Virus record (IMG/VR): IMGVR_UViG_3300018080_000030
Coordinates: 1 to 52,552 of that record
Length of the DNA: 52,552 nucleotides
Direction: 5' to 3' (one strand)
Source: a virus
Shown here: piece by piece, positions 5,301-28,270 of the stretch
How positions within the stretch are numbered: position 1 is the stretch's first letter
Layout: every line of letters starts with the position of its first letter
Notes under the pieces: model-generated
Told to the model about the DNA's origin: nothing
What the model saw: the letters and a program-made list of their open reading frames with translations, nothing else
The model's database searches: none
Program-made: the position numbers and the translations under genes

Positions 5301-5561
5301 ATGGCTACTAAGAAACCTGAAAAGGAAAACCTGTTGGAACAGACAGGTGAAATGCTCTCCCGAGAGGTTGAGTTGGAGACTGTGGAGAAAGTTAGAGAGG
5401 ACTTTAAGCGGAAAATTGGGAATTTGAAAGCCAGAATAGCTGACTATGAGAGACTTGCGGCTGAAACGCGTGATAAGCTCAGAACTCTGGAAAGTAAGAC
5501 GGTTGATGAGTACTTGCAGAGCGTGAATATCGCGGATTTTATGCATGAGAGGGAATTATGA
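5301..5561 (+). CDS. Coiled-coil protein preceding DNA polymerase
   Basis: 86 aa with SD AGGAGGAGCT. Almost the whole length is charged, heptad-like helix (VEKVREDFKRKIGNLKARI and onward). It overlaps the polymerase start by four bases (ATGA), so the two are probably translated together. A role as a polymerase accessory or processivity protein is conceivable from position only; no family recognised. Confidence 0.7.
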   Translation: MATKKPEKENLLEQTGEMLSREVELETVEKVREDFKRKIGNLKARIADYERLAAETRDKLRTLESKTVDEYLQSVNIADFMHEREL

Positions 5562-8071
5562 ATCTGGTGCCAGCTATAGGACCAGTTCCTGCTGACATAT
5601 TGCTGGTAGGAGAAGCCCCTGGTAGAGAGGAGGCAGCCAGGGGTGCTCCATTTGTCGGCGAATCAGGGCAGGAACTGACACAGTATTTGAGTAATGCAGG
5701 AATCAACCGTTATTCTCAATGCAGAATTACGAACCTGGTTCCATTCAACCCTCCTAAAAATAGAGACCCAAGTGCTGCTGAGATATTGGAGCACAAGGGC
5801 GCTTTGATAGACGAGATTGTAAATACCAGGCCAAAGGTGATAGGAGCGGTTGGCCGGCTATCTGCATCTACCCTTGCCATGCGTAATGTGGTGATGGAGA
5901 AGGAGCATGGTATCCCATTTATGTTTGGGAGTATACCAGTTGTCCCTATGTATCATCCCGCGGCAGGGTTACGGAGCACATGGCTGATGAGCAGGATACG
6001 GTCCGACTTTGAGCAGCTAAAGTTATGCTTAGATGGAAAGCTGAAGCCTGTAGAATGGGCTGCGCCAGCTATGGACATAGTTGAGCTTACTCCGGACAAC
6101 ATGATTACTGAAGCCTGCTTCTTCTTAACAGAGATGAATAGTACAGGTATAGTAGCTATAGATACTGAGAATCCGGATGACATACCTTGGAGCATACAGA
6201 TTTGTGCTACTCCTGGAACTGTGTTCTTTATTAGAGCCGCTGATATGGTACATCCTTCATTTGCTCGGCAAATCAAAGAAGCCATAGAGAACTCTCTATG
6301 CGTGTTTCATAACGCCAGGTATGACTTGGCTGTGCTGAGGAAGATGGATATACAGCCAACACGGTTTGTGGATACGATGAACATGGCTTACTTGTTGGGT
6401 GAGGTACAGAAGTTGAAGTATTTAGCATACAGACTACTCCATGTCCAGATGCAGGATTATGAAGAGGTGGTGAGAAGTTCTACGGAGTCCAGGGCTTTTG
6501 ACTATCTGACTAAGGTGTTAAGTATGGAGTGGGAAACTCCTGCACCTGTTCTTGAGCTGAAAGGCAGGAAACTACATACCAGAAATCCACAACACATCCA
6601 TACCAAGGTCCGCAGGCTGATGAAAAAGTGGTCTAATGATCCTATGAGTCTGCGGGATAAATGGGTTGACATGAAAGAGAAGGAGTATGTGGAGGCCAGG
6701 ATTGGTGAGATGCCGTTAGGGTCTGTAGCAAAGATTGACTTACAACAGGCTATGAATTATGCGTGCAGGGATGCTGATGTCACCATGAGGGTATATAGGA
6801 TTATGTCTCAGATGCTGAAAGACAGAGGGCTGGAGACCCCTCTTAAAATCGATATGGCTGCTCTGCCAATGGTGGTACAGATGGAGGAAAACGGTTTTCA
6901 ACTGGACTCAGGACACCTTATCCGGTATTCAATTCAGCTCAACCACAGGATGGAGAAGATTAAACATGAGTTGGATTGTCTGCTGCTGGAGAAGGGGTTT
7001 CTCAAAAAGGATGAGTATTATAATCCGAAGTCGCCGAAAGTGGCGATGGAGATGCTAAAACATCTGAAAGTTAGAGTCAAGACCACAGAGGCAAAGTACC
7101 TGATCCCGCATAAGGGCAGGCATAAGGCGATAGCTCTCCACCTGGATTTCAAAAAGCTGGCTAAGCTGGAATCCACATATACTACATCTTTGGTAAAACA
7201 GGTAAAGGATGGGAGGATTCATACCTCACTGCCTATGACTGTTGCTGACACGTGGAGACTGGCAAGCAGGAATCCGAATCTACAAAACATCCCTGTGCGT
7301 GGAATAGATGGTAAGACGATCCGCGAGGCGTTCATTGTTCCGAAAGGATGTAAGCTGCTAAGTGTGGATTACTCACAGATTGAGATGCGGGTAGCCGCAC
7401 ATATGAGCGCTGATGAGCGAATGATAAAAATCTTCCGACAGGGCAAAGACCTGCATAGTATGACCTCAGAGGCTATCTTCGGGGATACCACCTCTGAGCA
7501 TCGCTATCCTACAAAACAAGCAGGTTTTGGAATCTTATATAAGATTAGTCCTATGGGATTACATGAATTACTTGAAGCTGAGGGTGTGAAGAGTTGGACT
7601 GAGGAGAGGTGCGCACAGTTGATCCTTGACTGGTATAAGCAATATCCTGGGATAGCTGCTATGCAGGATAAGTTTGAGTTAGAAGCATTTAATACGGGGA
7701 GAGTGATGGACTTATTTGGTAAGCCTCGCATGGTTCCTGAAGTCTACTCTGCCCATGCCCGGGTGCGTAATGCTGGGGTGCGACAGGCGTGTAATGCCCC
7801 AATTCAAAGTAGTGCAGCCGGTATTTTGAAGAGGGCTATGGCTAAACTATTGCCAGTTTGTGAGATGTTATCGCAAGCTGGACACTTCAAACCACTCTTA
7901 CAGATACATGATGAGCTATTATTCGAGGTAGGTGAGGACATCTTGGACATGGCAGTGGAGTGGATTGTGTCTGCAATGGAAGACTCCGTGAATTTGATTG
8001 TTCCAATTAAATGCGATGTGGAGGTGGGGGATAACTGGGGGTCATTGGAGAGTTATTATGAAGATGGTTAG
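5558..8071 (+). CDS. Uracil-DNA glycosylase / family A DNA polymerase fusion
   Basis: 837 aa, three domains. Residues 1-155 resemble a family 4-like uracil-DNA glycosylase: motif 1 GEAPGREE (18-25) and motif 2 MYHPAAGLR with His133. The four cysteines that hold the Fe-S cluster in classical family 4 enzymes are absent. Residues about 195-410 form a 3'-5' exonuclease: Exo I Asp202/Glu204, Exo II Asn252-x3-Asp256, Exo III Tyr401-x3-Asp405. The rest is PolA: motif A with Asp604 (VDYSQIE), motif B with Arg649, Lys653, Phe657 and Tyr661, motif C HDE at 784-786. Motif B ends YK where YG is usual. No 5'-3' exonuclease domain is present. This is the replicative polymerase; the fused domain may scan template or product for uracil. 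Confidence 0.93.
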   Translation: MNLVPAIGPVPADILLVGEAPGREEAARGAPFVGESGQELTQYLSNAGINRYSQCRITNLVPFNPPKNRDPSAAEILEHKGALIDEIVNTRPKVIGAVGRLSASTLAMRNVVMEKEHGIPFMFGSIPVVPMYHPAAGLRSTWLMSRIRSDFEQLKLCLDGKLKPVEWAAPAMDIVELTPDNMITEACFFLTEMNSTGIVAIDTENPDDIPWSIQICATPGTVFFIRAADMVHPSFARQIKEAIENSLCVFHNARYDLAVLRKMDIQPTRFVDTMNMAYLLGEVQKLKYLAYRLLHVQMQDYEEVVRSSTESRAFDYLTKVLSMEWETPAPVLELKGRKLHTRNPQHIHTKVRRLMKKWSNDPMSLRDKWVDMKEKEYVEARIGEMPLGSVAKIDLQQAMNYACRDADVTMRVYRIMSQMLKDRGLETPLKIDMAALPMVVQMEENGFQLDSGHLIRYSIQLNHRMEKIKHELDCLLLEKGFLKKDEYYNPKSPKVAMEMLKHLKVRVKTTEAKYLIPHKGRHKAIALHLDFKKLAKLESTYTTSLVKQVKDGRIHTSLPMTVADTWRLASRNPNLQNIPVRGIDGKTIREAFIVPKGCKLLSVDYSQIEMRVAAHMSADERMIKIFRQGKDLHSMTSEAIFGDTTSEHRYPTKQAGFGILYKISPMGLHELLEAEGVKSWTEERCAQLILDWYKQYPGIAAMQDKFELEAFNTGRVMDLFGKPRMVPEVYSAHARVRNAGVRQACNAPIQSSAAGILKRAMAKLLPVCEMLSQAGHFKPLLQIHDELLFEVGEDILDMAVEWIVSAMEDSVNLIVPIKCDVEVGDNWGSLESYYEDG

Positions 8072-11009: not shown

Positions 11010-11134
11010 GGGCATGTGGCGGAATTGGTAGACGCACGGGTAATGGCATACCCCGTCTCGGTTGCCACGCAAAAGTGCGCCTTTTAGGATGAGCAAGCGA
11101 ACGCCGAGTGCTGGTTCAAATCCAGCCATGCCCT
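11010..11134 (+). tRNA. tRNA-Leu-like element with about 35-40 nt excess length
   Basis: The 7-bp acceptor stem GGGCATG/CATGCCC is perfect (11010-11016 and 11127-11133), and the T arm GCTGG-TTCAAAT-CCAGC is perfect. The D arm (GCGG-AATTGGTAGA-CGC) is typical of leucine tRNAs. Total length is 125 nt, against 85-90 for tRNA-Leu. The anticodon region does not form a 5-bp stem with a 7-nt loop: either GGGTA/TACCC with a 6-nt loop or ACGGG/CCCGT with an 11-nt loop fits. A stem CTCGG/CCGAG then encloses about 42 nt. It could be an intron-bearing or expanded tRNA, or a tRNA mimic. Confidence 0.6.
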
Positions 11135-15112: not shown

Positions 15113-16051
15113 ATGGTGAGATTCACTGCTAATGGACGTTACGTACATGTAGTGAACCAATATGGAGAACTGGTAAACAAAGTGTTCGTTCCGACTTTCA
15201 TGTACGCTGCTGCCCAAGGGATGAAGTACAAAAAAGACTGGCGAAATGCCTATAATCTTCGTATATTAGAATCAGGGGACAAGGTTGCTTGTGATGATGG
15301 CTATGTGGTTACTGTGGTTAAAATCAGCTACGGCTCTACAATCAACAAGATCACTACAGAAGTCAACTCAATCGTAGAGCTGCCACCAGGGCAGCCTCCG
15401 TTAGACTTGGAAGGCTGCTTCTTGACCACGAATCCACAGATACTTGGAGGGTACTTTATAGCTCCTCCAATGATGCCTGCTAAGCGGTTACTGGAATATA
15501 CGAAGATCGCACAGGCTTTCCTGAATACCCTTGACTTAGAGAAAGCCTACAGAAGTGTTCGGCCTGGCAGGACTACGAAAGCTGACATCGAGAGGATACT
15601 ATACAAAGACGAGTTTAGGTATATACTTATGGCGCACATTTTAGATTACTTTCACAAAAGCGGTGTGACACCTGATGCGGTGTTAGCTCTTGTCCATGAG
15701 AGGATGGCTGATGAGGCTCCTGTTGACACACTACTATCTTACCTGGAGTTGTATGCTAAGATTCACCCAGATATGCACGTTGATGGTGTACCAAGAGATG
15801 GGCTACAACAAATCACTGCTGTAGCCAGACCTGTTGGCTATATTGAAGACACCAGATATATCGACGCACACATTGAAGGCACGGCTTTGGAGGAAGCATC
15901 CTCATCGGATGAGGAAATCAGTCAACTCCAAGAGAATGAAATCATAACAAAGGAGGATAGTGATAGTGTGTACTCTATGCAGTTTGATGAGATTAACAGC
16001 GCTTCTGAAAATGAGGAGCTTCCTCTTAATAAACCTGTAAAGGAGACATGA
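15113..16051 (+). CDS. Probable small terminase subunit with extra N-terminal domain
   Basis: 312 aa, SD AGAGGTGAG. Residues 1-100 form a beta-rich module (GRYVHVVNQYGELVNKVF, then SGDKVACDDGYVVTVV). Residues about 122-225 follow the pattern of small terminases: an AQAFLNTLDLEKAYRSVRP helix-turn-helix, a segment with EFRYILMAHILDYF, then VTPDAVLALVHERMADEA and DTLLSYLELYAKIHPD. The tail is acidic. Its place two genes upstream of the terminase ATPase supports TerS, which recognises DNA for packaging. The assignment is by pattern and position, so moderately sure. Confidence 0.6.
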   Translation: MVRFTANGRYVHVVNQYGELVNKVFVPTFMYAAAQGMKYKKDWRNAYNLRILESGDKVACDDGYVVTVVKISYGSTINKITTEVNSIVELPPGQPPLDLEGCFLTTNPQILGGYFIAPPMMPAKRLLEYTKIAQAFLNTLDLEKAYRSVRPGRTTKADIERILYKDEFRYILMAHILDYFHKSGVTPDAVLALVHERMADEAPVDTLLSYLELYAKIHPDMHVDGVPRDGLQQITAVARPVGYIEDTRYIDAHIEGTALEEASSSDEEISQLQENEIITKEDSDSVYSMQFDEINSASENEELPLNKPVKET

Positions 16052-16398
16052 TGAGACTCGGTAAAATTGAGGAGAGTGTGTTAGAAGTATCACACATGGG
16101 AGAACCTTTTGTTGGGTTGGTAGTGGAGATTTTGGATCAATTCCATGAGGATGGGATGTTGATGTACTTCTGTAGAGGATATAGTAGACAAACACACACA
16201 TTCAACGTGCCCGCAAAGCATGTAACGGAATTGCCAGATCCACCGAAAGTAAAGCGGAAGAAAGCGAGACGCAGTGAACAAAGACCGGTCAGGACTACAA
16301 AGCCTGGTGGAGGCAGTAAGCAAGCCGCCTCAACAAAAGCCAAGAAGCCAGGTGCAGCCGCCTCTAAGTCAGCCTCCTCAGCTAAAGCTGGAGCGTAA
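16048..16398 (+). CDS. Small basic-tailed protein overlapping terminase
   Basis: 116 aa from ATG 16048 or 16051, both behind AAAGGAG. The first 70 residues are a beta-rich, SH3-like module (FVGLVVEILDQFHEDGMLMYF). The last 45 are Lys/Ala/Ser/Pro-rich and very basic, as in DNA-binding tails. The basic tail is encoded in the same bases as the N terminus of the terminase ATPase (16274-16398) in another frame. It may bind DNA during packaging; no family recognised. Confidence 0.65.
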   Translation: MMRLGKIEESVLEVSHMGEPFVGLVVEILDQFHEDGMLMYFCRGYSRQTHTFNVPAKHVTELPDPPKVKRKKARRSEQRPVRTTKPGGGSKQAASTKAKKPGAAASKSASSAKAGA

Positions 16399-17422
16399 GT
16401 CATTTACAAAGGCTGATTTCAGAGAGAAAGCTTGGAAAGATCACATATTCTTTTGTAATGAGCTGTTTCCTGAAGCGTTTTTTGTACCGTTCTGTGATGT
16501 GCATAGGAAGTTATTTCAGGTGGTGTTTGGTCCGGACCCTTATGTCAGCGTTATTGCCCCAAGGAAGCTGGGCAAGACACCGATAATCTGTTTTAGCTAC
16601 CCTATTAAGTTGGCGCTGTATGACGTTGAAACTTACATAGTCATAGCAAGTGAGACTATGGATGAGAGTAGGAGACATATCCAGAAGCTCACGAGAGCAT
16701 TGGAGTCCAATGAGAAGATTCATTACTACTATGCTAACCTCATTGACCGGAAGAACAGGGAGACTCAGAAGGAGTCAGTGCAGCTCTCGACAGGGCTGTG
16801 GTTTAGAGCTAAGTCCTTTATGTCACAGATCAGAGGAACTGCTGGTGATTGGACGCCACCGTCACTCATCATTGTTGACGACCCTCAGAGTAATAAAGAT
16901 GTCAAGACGGAGCGGTCACTTAAAGATGCGCAGAACTGGTTTGATGATGAAGTCATTTACTCCAAGGCGAAGAAGTGGAGGCATCCACGTCATGGAGCTG
17001 TGGGAAGTGGAAAGGTCAGGTTTCTTGGAACTTCCCTTCACCCGCAATGCTTAGCTGAGATAGTAGATGCCGACGAGAGGTTTGTTTCCAGGAGATATTC
17101 AATTCTGCAAAATCCAGAGACGGGGGAACCGGATACTGTGCATGGAGTGAGTATTTGGGAGGACATGTTTCCAACTAAAGAGTTGTATGCTGAGATGCGG
17201 AAAGCTGAAAGGGTGGGGAAGTTAGGGAACTGGCTTCAGGAACGTATGAACATGCCATACAAGTATGGAAGCAGGACTTTTGATGTGCAGGATATGAGGT
17301 TCTGGGATGAACCCGGGAATAGGTTTGACATTATAAATGATACGCCGGTGTTAGTAGTAGAAACGCCATTGTTATTTGATGAATATGAGCACAGGGAGTT
17401 TGAAGATGTTAGCACGGAATGA
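16274..17422 (+). CDS. terL: Large terminase, ATPase domain only
   Basis: 382 aa. Walker A APRKLGKT (95-102), Walker B LIIVDD (198-203) and the coupling motif LGTSLHP (251-257) are those of phage DNA-packaging motors. Typical TerL proteins carry a C-terminal RNase H-like nuclease and reach 450-700 aa; here the frame stops soon after the region QERMNMPYKYG and no nuclease follows. A matching nuclease domain is encoded separately at 18634-19344. The GTG start at 16274 has a weak ribosome site and overlaps the preceding gene by 125 bases; the low-complexity first 40 residues leave the exact start uncertain. Confidence 0.88.
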   Translation: MNKDRSGLQSLVEAVSKPPQQKPRSQVQPPLSQPPQLKLERKSFTKADFREKAWKDHIFFCNELFPEAFFVPFCDVHRKLFQVVFGPDPYVSVIAPRKLGKTPIICFSYPIKLALYDVETYIVIASETMDESRRHIQKLTRALESNEKIHYYYANLIDRKNRETQKESVQLSTGLWFRAKSFMSQIRGTAGDWTPPSLIIVDDPQSNKDVKTERSLKDAQNWFDDEVIYSKAKKWRHPRHGAVGSGKVRFLGTSLHPQCLAEIVDADERFVSRRYSILQNPETGEPDTVHGVSIWEDMFPTKELYAEMRKAERVGKLGNWLQERMNMPYKYGSRTFDVQDMRFWDEPGNRFDIINDTPVLVVETPLLFDEYEHREFEDVSTE

Positions 17423-17672
17423 TTACAGGTGTAAGAAATGTGGGAAGGTAAGTGAGTATTACGGAGCACCGCCATCCAGGTGTACCTGTGGTGGTGAGTG
17501 GGAGGTAGTGTTCACTGAGCCGGCAGAGACTATCACAGAACACGCAAGCACTGTACTCCATGTGATAGACCAGAACAAGAAACTGATGGAAGAGGTGTAT
17601 GAGGAGGATGCAGCTGCTAACTCTGAGGCTATGAAGGATTTAGAGAGTATTACTCATAGGAGTGTTGTTTAG
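17406..17672 (+). CDS. Zinc-ribbon small protein between terminase halves
   Basis: 88 aa from ATG 17406 (SD GGGAG); it overlaps the terminase ATPase by 17 bases. The N terminus has CKKC (residues 9-12) and CTC (about 25-27), forming a rubredoxin-like zinc knuckle as in small FmdB-type ribbons. A helical acidic tail follows. Similar small zinc-ribbon proteins are common in phage packaging regions. It may be a DNA- or protein-binding adaptor; unproven. Confidence 0.72.
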   Translation: MLARNDYRCKKCGKVSEYYGAPPSRCTCGGEWEVVFTEPAETITEHASTVLHVIDQNKKLMEEVYEEDAAANSEAMKDLESITHRSVV

Positions 17673-18020
17673 ATGACTACTGAGAACATAGTAATTAAGG
17701 CGCTGGAAGAGCCGGAGGAGCAGGAAGCAAGAAGTAAAATTATGCCTATAGTTGAAGTACCTGTATATGATGAGTTTGCTGAAGAAGGTTTCGAGGTAAG
17801 CACTCTTGGAATCGAGTATTCCCATCAACCTGATCCCCCAGACGCGGCAACTGCAACTTTAATGACGTATGGTTTTGAGCCTCACAATGCTGTGGTACCC
17901 TCTTTCAGGCAAACCCAGGAGTTTTATAGAATGGAGCATGAAACCAGAAGGATAGTGGGGCGGGAGTATGAACATAGTGACTTTGATGCTATAAAAGGTT
18001 TAGAAAAACCAGAAGAATAG
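17673..18020 (+). CDS. Unknown protein between terminase halves
   Basis: 115 aa beginning directly after the preceding TAG, with AGGAG 11 bases upstream. It is Glu/Pro-rich with little predicted hydrophobic core, so it may be partly disordered. Segments such as IMPIVEVPVYDEFAEEGFEV and FRQTQEFYRMEHETRRIV give no family. It lies between the terminase ATPase and nuclease genes and might bridge the two chains; this is speculation from position. Confidence 0.65.
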   Translation: MTTENIVIKALEEPEEQEARSKIMPIVEVPVYDEFAEEGFEVSTLGIEYSHQPDPPDAATATLMTYGFEPHNAVVPSFRQTQEFYRMEHETRRIVGREYEHSDFDAIKGLEKPEE

Positions 18021-18029
18021 GAGGACCAA

Positions 18030-18644
18030 ATGGCAAAAATTAAAGTGAAAACAGCTACTGTAGCTGAAGTCCATGAGGACATAGATAGTCTTCATGCTCA
18101 GCTTATTGCACAAGCTGAGGAGCTTGTGTCTGATGGGACTACACAACAATTAGAGGTATGGGACAAGATGCTTGAACGCGGCTTCTGGAAAGTTCCTGGA
18201 GCTGATGAGGGTAAAGCACAGATGCAGAAGTTCCAGCAGGCTAAACGTATGGGTGAGTTAGCTCTAAACTATAGGGATAAATACCCACACAACAAATTCG
18301 TAACAGTTAAAGGTGTGGAGTATATCTGTAAAAAGTATGCCCTGGTATACGGCCCTGCCCACAGGTTTGTGTCAGAGATTCCTGATAAAAATAAGCAGGA
18401 GATTGCTGACTTCAAAGTTGACGGAAATGATCGGGAAGATGTGGTTATGCAGGTTATTGGTAAGCCAGAAGACTTTGACCTAAGTGGTGATTGGGAAGTA
18501 CGGGGTTACAAAGTTGTAGACGCTGACCCCATCGTATTACAGCCAGTGCGTGGAGGGTTCTTAATCGTAAGTAAGTGGGGTGAAGAGGCTGACATCAAAG
18601 AAGCGAAAGGTGTGGGTCCGTTCAACCCGAAAGATGAATCATAG
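18030..18644 (+). CDS. Unknown protein upstream of terminase nuclease
   Basis: 204 aa, SD AGGAGGACC. The first 100 residues are helical and charged. The middle has an alpha/beta stretch (FVTVKGVEYICKKYALVYGP) and the end a beta-rich part (LQPVRGGFLIVSKWGEEA). No catalytic signature. Its stop overlaps the terminase nuclease start by 11 bases, so the two are likely translated together. A head or packaging role is inferred from position. Confidence 0.7.
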   Translation: MAKIKVKTATVAEVHEDIDSLHAQLIAQAEELVSDGTTQQLEVWDKMLERGFWKVPGADEGKAQMQKFQQAKRMGELALNYRDKYPHNKFVTVKGVEYICKKYALVYGPAHRFVSEIPDKNKQEIADFKVDGNDREDVVMQVIGKPEDFDLSGDWEVRGYKVVDADPIVLQPVRGGFLIVSKWGEEADIKEAKGVGPFNPKDES

Positions 18645-19344
18645 AAGACTGATAACCTTGAGAACGTTTACTGCGGCTGACTTGGCCAGCAGTGATAGCG
18701 AGACTTCAGATGATACTGTCGTGATGACCTGCGGGGTATCTAAACAGGGCTACCGCTTCTTTTTTGACAAATGGGTCTCGAAGGATGCGGAGCCTACGGA
18801 GATACTCCGTGAGGTTATTAGGCAAATGATACACTACAAAAGCTCCAGGGGCTTCATCGAAAAGAACAGGTTTGAATCGATAATGAGAACCTGTAGGAAA
18901 CTGGTGCAGAGGGGCTTTTATGGCGACCCGGCCCAAATTGGCAGGGTTATTCGTAGAATAAGTATGGTACCACATTATGGTAGAGAAGGGAAACAGAATC
19001 GTATCGTAGACGGTATCTCACAGGAGCTGAAAGCTCACATGCTTTACTTCCGTGGAGGTGAGGATTGGAATGACGTGCGTAATCAGATCCTGATGTATCC
19101 AGCTGTTTCATTTGATGATATATTGGATACCATTGAAATGTTGATCTCTAAGAGCTATGGACCATCGGTGGACGTGGTAAACCAGCACAGTCCAGCCGAG
19201 GATGTGTATAGCCGGCCTGACAACAAACCATTAACAATTAACGAGGTACTTGCACAGAAAAGGTATAATGTTTGGACAGGAGGCTTTGTAAATAATGGCT
19301 CAAAGAGACGAGAAGCCTGTAGTTACGGAAGAATCACAAAATAG
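18634..19344 (+). CDS. Large terminase, stand-alone RNase H-like nuclease domain
   Basis: 236 aa from ATG 18634; a GTG at 18580 in frame is possible. The order of motifs is that of TerL nuclease domains: TFTAADLASS with Asp16, SDDTVVMTCGVSKQGYRFFF, GFIEKNRF with Glu76, RIVDGISQELKA, YFRGGEDWNDVRNQIL, and a final FDDILDTIEML with Asp161, Asp162 and Asp165. Normally this domain is fused behind the ATPase, which here is a separate gene ending 1.2 kb upstream. The last 50 bases overlap the portal gene. It should cleave concatemeric DNA together with the ATPase subunit. Confidence 0.82.
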   Translation: MNHRRLITLRTFTAADLASSDSETSDDTVVMTCGVSKQGYRFFFDKWVSKDAEPTEILREVIRQMIHYKSSRGFIEKNRFESIMRTCRKLVQRGFYGDPAQIGRVIRRISMVPHYGREGKQNRIVDGISQELKAHMLYFRGGEDWNDVRNQILMYPAVSFDDILDTIEMLISKSYGPSVDVVNQHSPAEDVYSRPDNKPLTINEVLAQKRYNVWTGGFVNNGSKRREACSYGRITK

Positions 19345-21418
19345 TACCCCACATAAAAGTGATGAAGCTCAGAAACTCTATGATGAGTGTGCCTCAATCG
19401 TAAACTCCCCTAAGAGGCAAGAAAGAGTTACTCAGTGGAAAAGAGAGACTGGATTCTACTTTAATGCTCAATGGGAGAAGGGGGAGAGTGATGACTTAGA
19501 GGCAACAGGACAAGTAGACATCGTACTTAACACCCTTCGCAGGGCTATTAGGACACTGTTGTCACAGATGACGTTGAACCTTCCAAGCGCGCAATTCCTA
19601 CCGCGCCATATGTTACCACGATCAGCACAAGATGAGCAGTTTCTCGAAGAGATGAGAAGCCGCGTGAACTCGGTTTCTGGGCTATGGGATCATTGTTGGT
19701 ATATCAGCGGTGGTCCAATAATCACCAGGCGAGCAATCAAGCACCAACTTGTATGCGGACTTGGATACCTCGCCACCTACCTTGACCCACAAGCTGACTT
19801 CTATAGAGGTGAGCTGAAGTTTGAAAGCCGTATCCCCTGGGAAGTAGTAGTTCCACTAAACGCCTCAGATTTTGACTTTAATGATGCCCATAGACAGTTT
19901 TACCGGAAACAAATTACCCTTGGGGAGGCTGTGAGGATAGTAGGTGAGGGCCACAGGGACTTACTGAGGAACAACGCAATCGTATTAGTCAATGATCTTG
20001 ATCCGGATATTGGCATGTATGCCCCAGACGCTTCTCCGGTGTTTGCTATACCTATCACAGAATCACATGAGACTGACAAAGGAGATGATGACCTCATTAT
20101 TGAGTGGGTTGAGTGTGAGGAGAAGATAGCACATCCTGCGTTCCTGTATAAGGTAGAGACTTCTGATGTTGAGGTGGACACAATTATCTATGAGCCTTGG
20201 GGTGATGCCACCGATGGGGAAGAAGAAATCAAAGCCAGATTAAAGGCAAGAGGTATTAAAGCAAATATCAGTAAAGCCGATATAGACATACCAAGAGTTC
20301 AGCAGACAACCATCGCTGGCCGTGAGGTAATGGTGAGTAGGGAGTTACTACCTACTTCTCAGTATACATCAATACCAGTAATCGATGAGGATACTCATAA
20401 CCCATTATGTTATGGAGAGATATTTTTTGTAGCGCCGGCTCAGAAGCTGCTTAATAAGGTGTTTAGCCTGGCGATACTCCATCTTCAGACCAGTGGTAGT
20501 GGAGACAAGCTGATTGGTACAAAAGGCGCGTTTGGGGATACTCTTGAACAGGTAGAAGCTTTCCAGAAAACCTACACCAACCCATCGTCAGTGACTGAGC
20601 TGGCATCTGAGAACGTAGATGAGAAGAGCATTGGGGACATCATTATGCGCCTCCAAGCTACCCCGTTACAGCCTGCTGCAATCCAGGCTATCTCGTTGAT
20701 TACCAGCTGGATTGACAGGCTTACCCTGCATCCAATCTCATGGGGTGACCCATCCTCGGCACCCCGTACCGCAAGTGCGACGTTCGGTTTGAAGGAGTGG
20801 GGTGACGAGCCTTCCAAAATTCCAGCACTCCACCTCAACTATGCTATGCAGCGATTAGGGCAGACCTGGTTAGATAGGGTAGCGCATCACTATACTGTCC
20901 AAAAATCATTTGGTGTTCCGAATACTTATGGACAGATGAAGCAGTACATGATCAACACTCCGCAGGAAGGCGGGGCTATTTTAAATGACATCAGAGATTT
21001 CAAGGCAAACATATTTATAGCCAGCAGCAGTACGGTAATGATGAACAGAATGAGTATACTTATGGTGCTGAAAGAGTTGATGCCGATACACCCAGCATTC
21101 ATAAAGATGTTCCTACTGTATTCCGATATACCAGAAAAGTTTGAATTAATCAAAGAAATGGATTATACAAAGGGGCTGGAGCAACAAGTCGAGCAGTTTA
21201 TGCCGATGGTGGAGAAACTGCAACAGGAGTTAGCGTCAAAGGATGAGGAAACACAAAAGCTAATGTCAAAGGTAGAATTAACTAAACTAAAAGGTACGAT
21301 TAGTCAAATCACCACCAAGTACCGTGAGTGGCTCAAATACACACAAAAGGAAAAAGAGATGAGAGACCAAGTGATGCGGGAACAGGCCAGTCAACGAGTC
21401 GTAGGTGGTGGAGAATGA
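19295..21418 (+). CDS. Portal protein
   Basis: 707 aa, SD AGGAGG 11 bases before ATG 19295. The length, position between terminase and capsid, an N-terminal region with FYFNAQWEKG and VDIVLNTLRRAIRTLL, and a C-terminal coiled coil (EQFMPMVEKLQQELASKD) fit portal proteins of short-tailed phages, which are about 530-730 aa. The portal forms the dodecameric DNA gate and docks the terminase. It overlaps the nuclease gene upstream and the scaffold-like gene downstream. Residue identity is too low to name a subfamily by eye. Confidence 0.82.
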   Translation: MAQRDEKPVVTEESQNSTPHKSDEAQKLYDECASIVNSPKRQERVTQWKRETGFYFNAQWEKGESDDLEATGQVDIVLNTLRRAIRTLLSQMTLNLPSAQFLPRHMLPRSAQDEQFLEEMRSRVNSVSGLWDHCWYISGGPIITRRAIKHQLVCGLGYLATYLDPQADFYRGELKFESRIPWEVVVPLNASDFDFNDAHRQFYRKQITLGEAVRIVGEGHRDLLRNNAIVLVNDLDPDIGMYAPDASPVFAIPITESHETDKGDDDLIIEWVECEEKIAHPAFLYKVETSDVEVDTIIYEPWGDATDGEEEIKARLKARGIKANISKADIDIPRVQQTTIAGREVMVSRELLPTSQYTSIPVIDEDTHNPLCYGEIFFVAPAQKLLNKVFSLAILHLQTSGSGDKLIGTKGAFGDTLEQVEAFQKTYTNPSSVTELASENVDEKSIGDIIMRLQATPLQPAAIQAISLITSWIDRLTLHPISWGDPSSAPRTASATFGLKEWGDEPSKIPALHLNYAMQRLGQTWLDRVAHHYTVQKSFGVPNTYGQMKQYMINTPQEGGAILNDIRDFKANIFIASSSTVMMNRMSILMVLKELMPIHPAFIKMFLLYSDIPEKFELIKEMDYTKGLEQQVEQFMPMVEKLQQELASKDEETQKLMSKVELTKLKGTISQITTKYREWLKYTQKEKEMRDQVMREQASQRVVGGGE

Positions 21419-21440
21419 CAATCGACCAGAGGAGGACATA

Positions 21441-22697
21441 TTGCCAATAACACTTGACACTGACGACAAAGGGAGACCAATTACTGGGATAAAAAGCGCA
21501 CTCCCACATGGGGATTTGCAGTCTTATGGTGACAAAGTTCACACTGTTGATGCTGAAGACGCCTTCGGAGACTTGGAGTTTGAAGACATCCCTGTCGGCA
21601 AACCTGAAGAAAATCAGGGGAATGGTAAGCAGCAACAACAGGCAGCTAAAGGTGATAACGAGAGTGCTGATGATGCGGCATCAGAAGATGAGGAAGAACA
21701 GCAGCAACAGCAGCAAGATGACGATGATGAGGCTGGAGATGAGCAGGGTACTGAAGATGCAGGTGACGCTGGGGATGATGAGGGCAAAACTGTAAGGGGA
21801 GTTAAGGTAGACATAAGTGAGGAGACTTACCAATACCTCATCAAGCTCCCAAAGGACCAACTTATCGCCAGGGGAGAGAAACTGAAGAATGAAGTCTCCA
21901 AAGTAGGCACACGGCTGGGGCAGCTGGAGAAGGTAGTGGGTCCCACTGTTATGAAAGCTCTGAATGATGGTGAGGATCTAACTGTGGTTAAGAATCTGAT
22001 GGCTGATCTACCTGACCCAGCATTTCAGGAACATATAAGTCATTTCTATGAGGAGCATCAACGTGGCGCTGATGGTAGCTGGAAAAGGTCTGCTGATTAT
22101 GTGCCGCCTAAGCCGGTGTTGGATGAGATTTTGAGGCTTAATGCCGAGAGAGATAAGCTGACGGTGATGGATTTCTTTGAAGGAGAAGCAGGAGAGTTTG
22201 ACTTCAATGAAGCACACACTTCTCCTGGCAGTAAAAGTGGCATTGCATTAAAAAAGTTTGAACAAAAGAAGGCGGAAATAGAATCCAGCTTACAAGAGTT
22301 GGCTTCAAGAGCAACGCAGGCTTCTCAACAGAGCGCAGTGTCTGCTGAGGAGCAGGTAAGAAAAACACAGGAAAATTGGAAAGCGTTAGAAGCTAAACAC
22401 CCAGAGCTTGTTGACCCGCACGTTAGAGCTGAATTCGTACAGTACCTGAAGACTAATAAAGGTAATCTGTATGATGTATATTTTGAGGCTTTTAGGGCAT
22501 CAAAGCATGGACAGAAGACTACGCGCACATTGGTACTGGAAGAGTTGTCTCTGGTCAACAAAAACCGGAGCAAAAAAACCAGACCTAAGCAGTCGCGAGG
22601 GACTGATAAACAGGGTAAAAGTTTCCATGACGTTGATCCTAAACAACGCGAGGTTGTGAAATCTGATGCTGATTACTTCGGTGATTATGAGGAGTGA
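21441..22697 (+). CDS. Probable capsid scaffolding protein
   Basis: 418 aa if started at TTG 21441, which has a perfect AGAGGAGG five bases upstream; GTG starts at 21405/21408 in frame lack an SD. The first 130 residues are extremely acidic and Gln-rich (runs of Asp, Glu and Gln), followed by helices with charged heptads (LKNEVSKVGTRLGQLEKVV) and a basic C-terminal tail (KNRSKKTRPKQSRG). Acidic, helical, with a basic C-terminal tail, and immediately before the major capsid gene: this is how scaffolds look in P22- and T7-like phages. Sequence similarity to a known scaffold is not evident. Confidence 0.7.
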   Translation: MPITLDTDDKGRPITGIKSALPHGDLQSYGDKVHTVDAEDAFGDLEFEDIPVGKPEENQGNGKQQQQAAKGDNESADDAASEDEEEQQQQQQDDDDEAGDEQGTEDAGDAGDDEGKTVRGVKVDISEETYQYLIKLPKDQLIARGEKLKNEVSKVGTRLGQLEKVVGPTVMKALNDGEDLTVVKNLMADLPDPAFQEHISHFYEEHQRGADGSWKRSADYVPPKPVLDEILRLNAERDKLTVMDFFEGEAGEFDFNEAHTSPGSKSGIALKKFEQKKAEIESSLQELASRATQASQQSAVSAEEQVRKTQENWKALEAKHPELVDPHVRAEFVQYLKTNKGNLYDVYFEAFRASKHGQKTTRTLVLEELSLVNKNRSKKTRPKQSRGTDKQGKSFHDVDPKQREVVKSDADYFGDYEE

Positions 22698-22768: not shown

Positions 22769-24172
22769 ATGGCAGCGACAACTGTATTAGGATTGACGGG
22801 TGTGTCAAGAACTGATGGAGCTGCGCCCCCGCTACAGAACCGTAGAAAATATGATCGTTCTGACAAGATCATAATGAAGGGCTTAGCCGACGCACCGTTA
22901 CTCCATATAATGATAAAACGAGGCCAAAAGCGTGCAGTAGGCGACATCAAATACTATATGTTTGAAGACGACTACTTTGTGCAGTCAGGAACACTCAAAG
23001 GGTGTACGGCTGCTGGCGCCGATGCGGCCTTAACCACTGGTCTTCAGTATATGTATATTGCTGGAGACGCAAGTGAAAAGGGCAACACTTTATTACGGCC
23101 AAATGACATCATTCATATTCCTGCCTTTCAGGATAATCAAACCAATACTAAAGGTACTGGTAATGGAACTACTGACGGTGCGGTAGGTATGGCTGGTGAA
23201 GATGTTCGGATTCGTGAGTTTGTCACAGATAACGTAGCACTTGTTACCCGAGGCGGTGGTGAGGGGACACTTACCACAAACATCACAGCTGGTAGTGGGA
23301 ATACCTTGAAGTGGGAATACAAGGGTAATGCACTTCCAGACGCCTCTGCAAGCCCTGTCGCCAGAGCGCAGGCTATCGATGAAGACTACAACTATCGTCA
23401 GGTCATGCGACTCTCATGGGACGTCTCAGGACGTAACTTGATGCAGGACATGTATGGGCCAAGTGATATTCAAAGGTATGCTGTGAAGAACAGAACTCAG
23501 TTCCTGAGAAATCTGGAGCGGACATTCTGGACAGGTCACAGATACATTGCATACTCTGCAAACGGGTTGGAACAGTCAACAACTGGCGGTGCTTTCGAGT
23601 ATATAGTAGATACCTCCACTACTCGTAAAGCTGTATATGATGCCAGCAAAGACCTCCTTGAGGGTGACGCTTCTCAGCGAGTCTGGAAAGTGAATAAAAA
23701 CTTTGGACTGGATAACTACAATCGGTTTATGGAGAAGGCATTAAAGTACGGCAGTAGAAATAAGCTTGGTGTCGGAGGCCGAGAATTCTTGGTTACTCTG
23801 GAATCAATGCTACGTCCGTACTATGGCAGCTTTGACTGGGATGTGGACTCTTTCGGTTTTGGAGTTGTCATGGCAAGATGTTCGTTTGGTAGAATCCCGA
23901 TCGTAGTTGAGCAGGAATGGTCAGACTGCGCCGCGGGATATGGTTATTTCTTTGCATCCGTTGACATGGATTACATGTGGTATGTGTATGGCGCAGGCCC
24001 ATGTGCCATCAAGGGATGCGGAAATACCAATAGCGATGTACATTTACATCAGGAAATTCAGGGCAATGATGAAGCTCATCGCAAAGATGAGTTGTTTGCA
24101 GACTTTGGTTTCGACCAGAGATTCCGCAAAGCTCACAGCTTAATCGTAGCCGAAGCCTCAACCATTAGTTAA
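22769..24172 (+). CDS. Major capsid protein
   Basis: 467 aa, SD CGGAGGAATAAGG. It follows the scaffold candidate and precedes small head genes. Features fit an HK97-fold capsid of the SU10/DUF5309 style: an N-terminal extended segment, a long middle helix region with RNLERTFWTGHRY, a repeated aromatic P-domain-like stretch (LRPYYGSFDWDVDSFGFGVV) and a C-terminal beta part. Gly/Thr-rich loops at about 110-175 may form a surface insertion. High-level expression is suggested by the strong SD. Capsid identity is confident from context; the fold name is inference. Confidence 0.8.
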   Translation: MAATTVLGLTGVSRTDGAAPPLQNRRKYDRSDKIIMKGLADAPLLHIMIKRGQKRAVGDIKYYMFEDDYFVQSGTLKGCTAAGADAALTTGLQYMYIAGDASEKGNTLLRPNDIIHIPAFQDNQTNTKGTGNGTTDGAVGMAGEDVRIREFVTDNVALVTRGGGEGTLTTNITAGSGNTLKWEYKGNALPDASASPVARAQAIDEDYNYRQVMRLSWDVSGRNLMQDMYGPSDIQRYAVKNRTQFLRNLERTFWTGHRYIAYSANGLEQSTTGGAFEYIVDTSTTRKAVYDASKDLLEGDASQRVWKVNKNFGLDNYNRFMEKALKYGSRNKLGVGGREFLVTLESMLRPYYGSFDWDVDSFGFGVVMARCSFGRIPIVVEQEWSDCAAGYGYFFASVDMDYMWYVYGAGPCAIKGCGNTNSDVHLHQEIQGNDEAHRKDELFADFGFDQRFRKAHSLIVAEASTIS

Positions 24173-25286: not shown

Positions 25287-25319
25287 GGTGGAGCTGCTGA
25301 ACTATATGGCAGCTCCGCC
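25287..25319 (+). terminator. Stem-loop between head genes and glycosyltransferase cassette
   Basis: An 11-bp stem GGTGGAGCTGC/GCAGCTCCGCC (one G-U pair) encloses an 11-nt loop, eight bases after the stop at 25278. No T tract follows. It may be a transcript 3'-end stabiliser or partial terminator that lowers expression of the glycosyltransferases relative to capsid genes. Confidence 0.5.
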
Positions 25320-25338
25320 GCAATTATGGAGGACCATT

Positions 25339-26358
25339 ATGAGATATTGTCTTTATGCTCAACCGCAGTGGTTGATACAAAGCTATGGACTTAGTCCAAA
25401 CACTGTGACACCTATTAAGCATCTCGCGCTGCCAAGGGTGATGCACAGCGGTCTGGTAAACTGGATGAAGGTATTAGAAGGTGTAGCGTGTGTTCCTGCT
25501 AATAAGGAAATGTATGAAGCTGTGGATGTTATCAACGTAAACTTGCCTACCAGGAACATCGGCTGTATCAAAAAGATACACCAGCATCTTCGTGATTTAC
25601 AGATGAATGGTAAGGCTCCAATGGTTATCGCTAACCCTGATTATGCCGTAGAGATGTGGTGGTATGAAGGACGCATTGACTTGTTTTTGAAGGACATAAA
25701 TCTGGCTGATAAAATCTTCTGTGTACATCCAGCGATGAGTGAGACGTTGGAGGTGTTGCTGGAGAAGCAGGTGTGGACAATCCCACATCCAACAGATGTG
25801 CAGACGTTGCGTACTGAGTTTTTTGAAAAAAGATACAGTGACCCATTTAATTTCATCACTGTACTCGTCTTAGCCCATAGTTATGATAGGAACTATATTA
25901 TACCAACTGAGGTAGTGCAGACTATTCAGAATAACGATGCTGTGATGAGGACCGCGATGGTCGGTAAAGTCGGCAGGGATTCAATGTACCTTAAAGACAG
26001 GTATGACGAATACTATGAGGCAATGCCCTTTCCGGATCTAATGAACCTGATTAGTAGAGCTGATGTAGTTATCGACACATCGTTCTTTCACAGCTATGGC
26101 AGGGTTCCGGTAGAGTGTGCTGCTGTAGGAACACCTTGCATCACACACAACACAGTCTATTCTGGGAAGCTATTGTTCCCTGAGTATCAGTGTGATATTA
26201 TGGATGGGAAGCAGCTGTTTCAGAAGATCAACCAGGTGTTGTTTAATGAGCCACCAAGCAAGTCCACCCGGGAAACATACTCTAAGGAGGCTGAGAAACA
26301 CTTTGGCTATGAAACTTCACGTAGAAAATTTACCAAAATGGTAGAGGAGGTTATATGA
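25339..26358 (+). CDS. GT-B (GT4-like) glycosyltransferase 1
   Basis: 339 aa from ATG 25339 (SD ATGGAGGACC). The C-terminal half has the GT-B donor-binding pattern: ISRADVVIDTSFFHSYGRVPVECAAVGTPCI style helix-strand with Glu in VPVECAAVGTP, as in GT4 enzymes. The N-terminal half is alpha/beta with ADKIFCVHPAMSETL and WTIPHPTDV, a hinge often seen before the donor domain. It should transfer sugar from an activated nucleotide to an unknown acceptor. It is translationally coupled to the next glycosyltransferase (ATGA at 26355). Confidence 0.78.
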   Translation: MRYCLYAQPQWLIQSYGLSPNTVTPIKHLALPRVMHSGLVNWMKVLEGVACVPANKEMYEAVDVINVNLPTRNIGCIKKIHQHLRDLQMNGKAPMVIANPDYAVEMWWYEGRIDLFLKDINLADKIFCVHPAMSETLEVLLEKQVWTIPHPTDVQTLRTEFFEKRYSDPFNFITVLVLAHSYDRNYIIPTEVVQTIQNNDAVMRTAMVGKVGRDSMYLKDRYDEYYEAMPFPDLMNLISRADVVIDTSFFHSYGRVPVECAAVGTPCITHNTVYSGKLLFPEYQCDIMDGKQLFQKINQVLFNEPPSKSTRETYSKEAEKHFGYETSRRKFTKMVEEVI

Positions 26359-27245
26359 AAGTAGCCATTGTTGCAATAGATGGAAGTTGGACCGCCTCTA
26401 TAGGGTATGAGTATGCGATTAATACTACAGGTGCAGAATGCCAATGCTTTTATCAGCTACCTAATCTTTATGGTCACAATAATCCCCAGGGAGAGTATTT
26501 CACTGACCTGAAAGATGTCCCTCACAAGTATGACTTGTTGATATTCGCAGGTACAAAGCTGTTCCATGAAGCCTACCTAAGATGCCCTGAGCTGCTAAAG
26601 GCTTACAAGGGCTGTATAAAGGTCATTCCAAGTGGCAGGTACTACAGAAAAAACCACGAGATGTTGAATGCCGCATTCAAAGATGTCGGTGTTGAGTTAC
26701 ATGTGATGCCGGATTTATTCCGATATTGTGAAGGGGAGCAGGTCCCGTTCTATCCACCCATGGAACTGGTTCCTACATTCCAGGCACCATATATAACTGT
26801 GTGTCACTCGCCATGTAATGTACAGAAGATGATGACAAAGGGTTCACATATTATCTGCCCTACGGTTATGAAGTTTACAGTAGCATTTGATGTAATACTG
26901 TATACTCCATGGCCACAAGCCATACAGCGTAAAGCTCGGTGCCATATTTTCATAGATCAGATAGTGAGTATACGTGAGTACACTGGCGGCATAGGTAAAT
27001 CTGGTCTTGAAGCTATGTCTTTAGGACTGGCAACTATCTCCAGTGGGGAGCCATACACATCAGACTTGCTGCCTTCTCCACCGGTGCTGTGGGCTGATAA
27101 GGACACCTTGAAATATGCGCTGATTAATCTGTTACAGAAAGCCGATTACAGGAGAAAGGTGATCGAGGAGCAGCGCTCATGGGCCAGAGAGTTTCTCAGC
27201 TATGAGTTTGCTGGAAGACTACTGATGAAGGGGGGTAAGAGATGA
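26355..27245 (+). CDS. GT-B-type glycosyltransferase 2
   Basis: 296 aa, SD GAGGAGGTT, ATGA overlap on both sides. The recognisable part is the donor domain: HIFIDQIVSIREYTGGIGKSGLEAMSLGLATISSG, in which SGLEAMSLG is the GT4-type Glu helix. The N-terminal domain is alpha/beta. Short for the family (usual 350-400 aa), so loops may be reduced. The acceptor is unknown; virion protein, phage DNA or host envelope are all possible. Confidence 0.74.
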   Translation: MKVAIVAIDGSWTASIGYEYAINTTGAECQCFYQLPNLYGHNNPQGEYFTDLKDVPHKYDLLIFAGTKLFHEAYLRCPELLKAYKGCIKVIPSGRYYRKNHEMLNAAFKDVGVELHVMPDLFRYCEGEQVPFYPPMELVPTFQAPYITVCHSPCNVQKMMTKGSHIICPTVMKFTVAFDVILYTPWPQAIQRKARCHIFIDQIVSIREYTGGIGKSGLEAMSLGLATISSGEPYTSDLLPSPPVLWADKDTLKYALINLLQKADYRRKVIEEQRSWAREFLSYEFAGRLLMKGGKR

Positions 27246-28270
27246 AGAAGAAAGTGTTGATGTTTGCTATGTATGATTGGGCTAACTCAGGGTTCAAAAC
27301 CTCAGAAGCTGTAAATAGATGTTCTGATGACTATGAGGTAGAATATTTTGCTGTGAATCCTCACGTCTTTGGATATGAGAGGGGGAGCAATATAATCCTG
27401 GAGAAGGTTGATAGCAAGGTATATCAAAACAATGAGGTGGTAGCAAGGCTCAGGAAAGTGCTGGAGAAGTGTGATATTATGCACTTCAAAGGTGATGAGG
27501 GAGTGCCAAAGACAGTAGCTGAGATTGAAATCGATAGATTAAATAAGCCCGTGGTATGGACTGTGTGTGGTAGGGTATGGGAAGCTAAGCATTCAGAGCT
27601 ATGGGATGAATATGGTAAGTACACCGATGCATTATTAGCCACTACTCCAGACCACTTACAGCATGGGATTGAAGGGACATGGATGCCGCTTCCTATAGAT
27701 GTAGAGAGGTATAAGCCTATACCACGGGCTGATGACTGTATTGTGATTCAGCATTCCACTACTGCTGAGAGAAAGGGAACTGAGCTGATTAACCAGGTCT
27801 TTACTGGGCTGTACGAAGAATATAGCAAGGTCTTTTGCAGTATTCACAGTAATATTCCTTTCCAGTTAGCCATGCAGCTGAAGAGGATTTCTCACATCTT
27901 CGTAGACCAGATAAACAGGTACAATATATATGCAAATAGCGCTCTGGAGGCGATGGCCATAGGAGCTGCTACAGTTGCAAGTTGTGATTGGGCTGATGGG
28001 ATTACTTATGCTACTGAGAAAACGCTGCACGGTGTCCTAATTGAGTTGATAGAGTCACCGGAGAAGCTGCTTGAGGCCCAAAGGTTAGCAAGGGAGTATG
28101 CAGAGCAGGTTCATAGCTACCATGCAGTGTCTGCAAAGCTATGCAAAGTATATGATAGAGTGTTAAAGCGCGGAACGGTGTCTGATAATTCTAAGGTAAT
28201 TGGTCCTCCAGCCACTGTACGACAAGACACCGTTTCCGCTTATGAGAAGGAGACCAAAGATGACGGTTGA
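27242..28270 (+). CDS. GT-B-type glycosyltransferase 3
   Basis: 342 aa. An N-terminal Rossmann-like half (KKKVLMFAMYDWANSGF) and a donor half with HIFVDQINRYNIYANSALEAMAIGAATV; NSALEAMAIG corresponds to the GT4 Glu helix and resembles the same segment of the preceding protein (HIF-DQI in both), suggesting the two arose by duplication. It overlaps the following adaptor-like gene by 11 bases, so the glycosyltransferases are embedded in the structural operon. Confidence 0.76.
   Translation: MKKKVLMFAMYDWANSGFKTSEAVNRCSDDYEVEYFAVNPHVFGYERGSNIILEKVDSKVYQNNEVVARLRKVLEKCDIMHFKGDEGVPKTVAEIEIDRLNKPVVWTVCGRVWEAKHSELWDEYGKYTDALLATTPDHLQHGIEGTWMPLPIDVERYKPIPRADDCIVIQHSTTAERKGTELINQVFTGLYEEYSKVFCSIHSNIPFQLAMQLKRISHIFVDQINRYNIYANSALEAMAIGAATVASCDWADGITYATEKTLHGVLIELIESPEKLLEAQRLAREYAEQVHSYHAVSAKLCKVYDRVLKRGTVSDNSKVIGPPATVRQDTVSAYEKETKDDG

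Follow-up and report, generated by a model that had tools for sequence, protein, structure and literature searches.

A tailed-phage large terminase carried as separate ATPase and nuclease genes

In the model for phage T4, the nuclease domain of the large terminase (TerL) is the lever that moves DNA by way of a flexible hinge. A C-terminal RNase H nuclease associated with TerL has been called universal across tailed phages in a review (PMC7824862), and in HK97 the linker supplies a strand that packs against the nuclease hairpin (PMC9410871). In the open-access literature we found no published TerL whose ATPase and nuclease are encoded by different genes, with an earlier report elsewhere possible; the closest published case found is the intron-fragmented terL of the Jug phages (PMC12363816). 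Here we describe IMG/VR virus record IMGVR_UViG_3300018080_000030 (record class linear), analysed over its whole 52,552 bases and called the window below, in which TerL is found as two genes set apart from each other. An earlier note on this DNA had proposed the split, and our analysis supported it, as one TerL profile is covered in two parts, the folds of both products match and TerL is split too in a related virus (the relative). The elements concerned are:

16274-17422, plus strand: stand-alone TerL ATPase gene, 382 amino acids (aa), starting at GTG 16274 or 16307
17285-17422, plus strand: C-terminal tail of the ATPase protein (residues 338-382), the site where other TerLs run via a linker into the nuclease
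18634-19344, plus strand: stand-alone TerL nuclease gene, 236 aa from an ATG start, with GTG 18580 as an alternative giving 254 aa

The first protein is a P-loop ASCE ATPase with Walker A (APRKLGKT), Walker B (LIIVDD) and coupling motifs (motif C, LGTSLHP); the earlier note had read these in the product (Walker B as IIVDD) and had seen no nuclease after them, and all are indeed present, as is every coordinate that it gave. Residues R86, K90, D191, D192 and T242 are invariant among 20 aligned sequences. The predicted structure, which is reliable across roughly residues 30-320 of the chain as modelled and has a predicted local distance difference test (pLDDT) score of around 95 in the core, matched the TerL ATPases of PhiV-1, T4, T7 (a threading model), HK97, P74-26, Sf6 and D6E with Z-scores of 13.8-23.9, and unrelated helicase-like ATPases from 12.8 down. 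The ATPases of the window and the relative have in common a tail, WDxxGNxFDIxxxxPVxVxE, that lies past the part shared with other TerLs. The final 27 residues of the model are predicted to be disordered, and the chain ends in this short tail with no phi29-type vestigial nuclease domain. Sequence and model together indicate that the gene encodes a complete TerL ATPase only, with a linker stump. Its true start is uncertain: from GTG 16274 it overlaps the preceding 116-aa open reading frame (ORF) by 125 nt (16274-16398), where the two frames encode low-complexity tails, basic and proline/glutamine-rich, and homology to the relative's ATPase starts only at residue 36.

The second protein is predicted to be an RNase H-fold nuclease with Asp/Glu/Asp catalytic acids. 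It carries D16, E76 and D161/D162/D165, which the earlier note had picked out correctly in a product without ATPase, plus K120 and R123; in an alignment of 21 sequences D16, K120, R123, D162 and D165 never vary, and D26 and E76 hardly do. An AlphaFold2 model, made with an alignment of 21 nuclease segments, has an RNase H core with block pLDDT mostly around 80-95 through residue 180. The best 34 Protein Data Bank (PDB) entries for this model were all TerL nuclease domains or TerLs (Z-scores of 11.1-14.1), including those of G20c, PhiV-1, RB49, T4, herpesvirus, D6E, Sf6, P22, HK97 and SPP1, with resolvases ranking after them at 10.6 and below. The fold on which the earlier note had staked its claim is thus predicted, and is nearest to TerL nucleases. 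Searching PDB sequences with each single window protein using phmmer gave no true match. From sequence and model, 18634-19344 is a gene for a complete TerL nuclease only, with its active site apparently intact.

Placed on a TerL profile, the two products complement each other. On PHROG phrog_38 (TerL), the window ATPase covered profile positions 258-539 (E = 1.2e-31) and the nuclease 546-713 (E = 8.4e-16). We also built an independent hidden Markov model (HMM; 492 positions) from 30 TerLs recovered here, nearly all complete single chains, on which the two parts occupied positions 19-305 and 315-465 in the window and 20-306 and 315-465 in the relative. E-values for the window ATPase and nuclease were 3e-59 and 3e-18 in a set of four sequences, and 1e-57 and 7e-17 among all window ORFs of at least 50 aa. 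At the level of sequence, this complementary match is far beyond chance, and the adjacent, non-overlapping ranges place the break at the inter-domain linker. Neither genome joins ATPase and nuclease in one polypeptide. Scanning all ORFs of at least 50 aa in the window and in the relative with the 30-TerL HMM revealed no second TerL; only the two genes matched, so there is no intact TerL in reserve.

Single-protein scans of IMG/VR with the window ATPase, nuclease, portal and capsid proteins found no relatives, whereas a search with an alignment of the window ATPase and three phage TerLs recovered 48 loci. Two of these, L006 and L007, have the same TerL split and are 62% identical to the window over the ATPase. 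Their layout is an ATPase gene (337 aa), a zinc ribbon gene (98 aa) and a nuclease gene (209 aa), with the portal gene 160 bp further on (read in L007). The earlier note had allowed for a continuous gene in a related genome; in this one the parts are unjoined, and the 292-nt gap between them holds exactly one gene, the zinc ribbon, in another frame. Successive genes of the three overlap by 1 and 4 nt, as is seen in operons with translational coupling. L006 and L007 were assembled from separate metagenomes, and the stretches common to both contigs are 99.97-99.99% identical; the L007 contig ends share about 127 bp and the L006 contig spans them, so the 50.3-kb relative is a closed circle. Protein identities to the window are 62% for the ATPase, 66% for the capsid protein, 46% for the portal, 37-38% for the nuclease and 34-36% for the zinc ribbon, indicating that the two viruses are well separated, yet the layout is kept. 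Further scans with pair alignments of the nuclease, capsid protein and ATPase returned the same two contigs plus one more distant single-chain TerL, and no prophage relative was found in the genome contigs scanned.

The pair also bears on whether the nuclease has left the packaging motor for a different task, for example resolving junctions or degrading host DNA, with the ATPase working alone or with another nuclease. RNase H-fold TerL nucleases do resemble RuvC-type resolvases, and relaxed coupling would fit the divergence of the pair: the aligned nucleases are 41% identical against 62% for the ATPases, below all single-chain pairs of similar ATPase identity (49-68% for pairs with ATPase identity of 59-64%). 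By this one comparison, the nuclease would have drifted faster here than when fused. In both genomes, however, the nuclease gene still lies after the ATPase gene and before the portal gene, its profile and fold are closer to TerL nucleases than to resolvases and no other packaging nuclease was identified, so we consider such a departure unlikely.

Between the two TerL genes, the window gap (17423-18633, 1,211 bp) holds the three intact ORFs that the earlier note had described:

17406-17672, plus strand: zinc ribbon, 88 aa from ATG, about 34-36% identical to that of the relative (36% over 69 aa, E = 2e-8)
17673-18020, plus strand: acidic ORF, 115 aa, with 26 D/E against 10 K/R and no detected relatives
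18030-18644, plus strand: 204-aa ORF, 30% identical over 128 aa to part of a Leptolyngbya phage Lbo-JY46 protein

The zinc ribbon matched the Pfam family zf-DPOE-like (E = 9e-6), and an NCBI FmdB zinc-ribbon model weakly matched both the window and relative members. It is the only gap gene conserved in the relative, in whose genome no homologue of the 115-aa or 204-aa ORF was found; the Lbo-JY46 counterpart of the latter is a 303-aa hypothetical protein distant from any annotated packaging gene. As only the zinc ribbon is common to both viruses, sequence comparison makes it the only ancestral occupant of the gap, and the 115-aa and 204-aa ORFs would be later additions to an older split. None of the 29 single-chain loci examined had a zinc-ribbon gene between TerL and portal, and the few CxxC matches upstream were unrelated or frame artefacts.

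These two ORFs, being missing from the relative, mean that insertion did occur at this site, as would be expected if the split were a chimera of assembly or a gene in decay that an insertion had broken up. But the relative, from two metagenomes, is already split without them, which refutes chimera or insertion as the cause of the split. In addition, the active-site residues of ATPase and nuclease are invariant and no alternative TerL is present to assume the function. An assembly error would need to have struck the same site in both viruses, and the contigs indicate that the split is not one; we regard artefact or decay as exceedingly improbable.

The same gap speaks to splicing. If the two parts were exons rejoined by RNA splicing, or by protein trans-splicing through a split intein, the mature TerL would be a single chain, and there is a precedent in the Jug phages, where RNA reads show that terL fragments are joined again by splicing of group I introns (PMC12363816). 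The window gap and its surroundings gave no Rfam intron, however; the gap is filled edge to edge by ORFs with their own ribosome-binding sites, and the gap in the relative corresponds exactly to the zinc-ribbon gene with its short overlaps. Beyond the profile match, the ATPase extends for about 37 residues at its C-terminal end and the nuclease for about 8 at its N-terminal end, too short for an N-intein, and inspection of the two proteins revealed no intein end motifs. With no sign of a group I or II intron or of an intein at the break, the invariant active sites, the gap layout and the lack of room for an intein favour two translated proteins, and rejoining by splicing is highly improbable. 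The earlier note had likewise judged a frameshift or intron unlikely, a view borne out by the absence of an Rfam intron, the ORF-filled gap and a relative with the same split.

To place the split among TerLs, we considered the other 46 of the 48 loci, in which every TerL with a complete gene is one chain (open frames of about 487-702 codons); L017, L045 and L051 are partial or run off the contig. A further distant locus, L069, is also single-chain. Five loci considered as broken TerLs (L037, L048, L050, L052 and L053) were rejected because each becomes a single ORF (468-493 aa) once TGA is taken as a sense codon, which suggests phages with a recoded TGA codon. The Pseudomonas PA11-like (Zobellviridae) TerL, the best GenBank match of the relative's nuclease, was rejected as well, being a 535-aa single chain. 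Among the relatives found, the split appears restricted to one clade. In the ATPase tree and the nuclease tree alike, the neighbours of the pair were one and the same group of single-chain TerLs (Shimodaira-Hasegawa-like approximate likelihood ratio test, SH-aLRT, of 82 and 29), a concordance that fits fission of one gene but is indicative only.

Together, sequence and predicted structure lead us to propose, with a probability of roughly 82%, that this is a two-chain TerL working in packaging. Most likely, a single-chain TerL was split by fission and its halves would now assemble non-covalently on the portal. Fission would have occurred at the flexible inter-domain linker, with the zinc-ribbon gene now in the break. 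A ring of ATPase chains on the portal would pump DNA; nuclease chains would join them non-covalently, perhaps by the zinc ribbon or the conserved tail of the ATPase, and would cleave the concatemer when packaging starts and when it ends. In window and relative alike, the nuclease has no Shine-Dalgarno match and its start overlaps the stop codon of the gene before it, a different gene in each, making it reasonable to infer that ribosomes probably re-initiate at this stop codon to translate the nuclease, possibly keeping its amount low. More tentatively, and at somewhat less than even odds, the motor may be a ring of ATPase subunits without a covalent C-domain, the nuclease being a separate, recruitable component in lower amount, possibly docked by a zinc-ribbon adaptor.

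Several points weigh against a working two-chain TerL. The split was seen in only two lineages, and its placement beside single-chain TerLs is weak, with long branches. Furthermore, T4 gp17 cut at the linker keeps its ATPase and nuclease activities and loses DNA translocation (PMC3012670), so two chains here would need a substitute for the tether or another translocation mechanism, which makes a natural split surprising and testable. If the more tentative reading of a ring without covalent C-domains is true, translocation would be independent of a tethered nuclease domain, which the T4 model demands. A lineage with a natural split allows direct tests of whether the tether is necessary for translocation, of what has taken its place and of how nuclease activity is kept off during packaging, and separate subunits should be easier to study than full-length TerL. 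Such genomes would be miscounted by annotation pipelines built around a single TerL chain.

Both TerL genes adjoin the portal and capsid genes, and except for TerL being in two pieces the region has the usual head-and-packaging order of tailed phages: a 312-aa ORF, the 116-aa ORF, ATPase, zinc ribbon, 115-aa ORF, 204-aa ORF, nuclease, portal, scaffold-position ORF and capsid protein. The flanking features are:

16048-16398, plus strand: ORF of 116 aa preceding the ATPase gene, its C-terminal tail basic
19295-21418, plus strand: P22-like portal protein (PF16510, E = 1e-40; phrog_156, E = 9e-45)
21405-22697, plus strand: scaffold-position ORF, kept in the relative (34%)
22769-24172, plus strand: SU10-like major capsid protein (PF17236, E = 6e-12)

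At the position equivalent to the 116-aa ORF, the relative has a 155-aa ORF with no detectable homology to it. Directly after the head genes, window positions 25288-28270 hold three successive ORFs of about 300-356 aa, glycosyltransferase-like by eye and conserved in the relative.

Outside this region, the window encodes DNA polymerase A (5558-8071) within a single 837-aa protein that also carries a 3'-5' exonuclease and a uracil-DNA-glycosylase-like domain. The relative (L060, 30595-33794, minus strand) has two ORFs instead, of 483 and 457 aa, with 374 bp separating the exonuclease from the polymerase; this gap contains a near repeat of the codons that end the first ORF (PDWIKPL) and gave no Rfam intron. 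At window positions 11010-11134 lies a 125-nt tRNA-like gene with an unusually long centre (Rfam tRNA, 39.7 bits), which ARAGORN skipped when introns were disallowed and read as tRNA-His(atg) with a 32-nt intron when they were allowed; the intron may instead be a misread long-variable-arm tRNA.

Compared with known systems, the window has the same domains in the same order as the single-chain PHROG 38 TerLs of Desulfofustis phage LS06-2018-MD01, Caulobacter phage Kuura and Leptospira phage LbrZ_5399, and in Kuura the portal gene comes next, as it does after the window nuclease; those TerLs are one chain of about 515-550 aa, whereas the window has two chains of 382 and 236 aa. The herpesvirus terminase UL15/UL89 has a nuclease fold like that of the window nuclease (Z-scores of 12-13), and there too other genes lie between its exons, but eukaryotic splicing restores a single chain, unlike the two genes of the window. 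phi29 gp16 is, like the window ATPase, a motor whose own chain lacks a working nuclease; gp16 retains a vestigial nuclease domain (PMC9410871), whereas the window ATPase lacks a C-domain and a working-looking nuclease is encoded apart. In the Jug phages terL lies in more than one ORF, as in the window (PMC12363816), but its fragments are joined by RNA splicing, whereas in the window no intron was found and the break falls at the domain border. Finally, T4 gp17 has the same two domains, a flexible hinge and isolated domains that are active (PMC3012670); its split was experimental and cost translocation, whereas the split in the window is natural and conserved.

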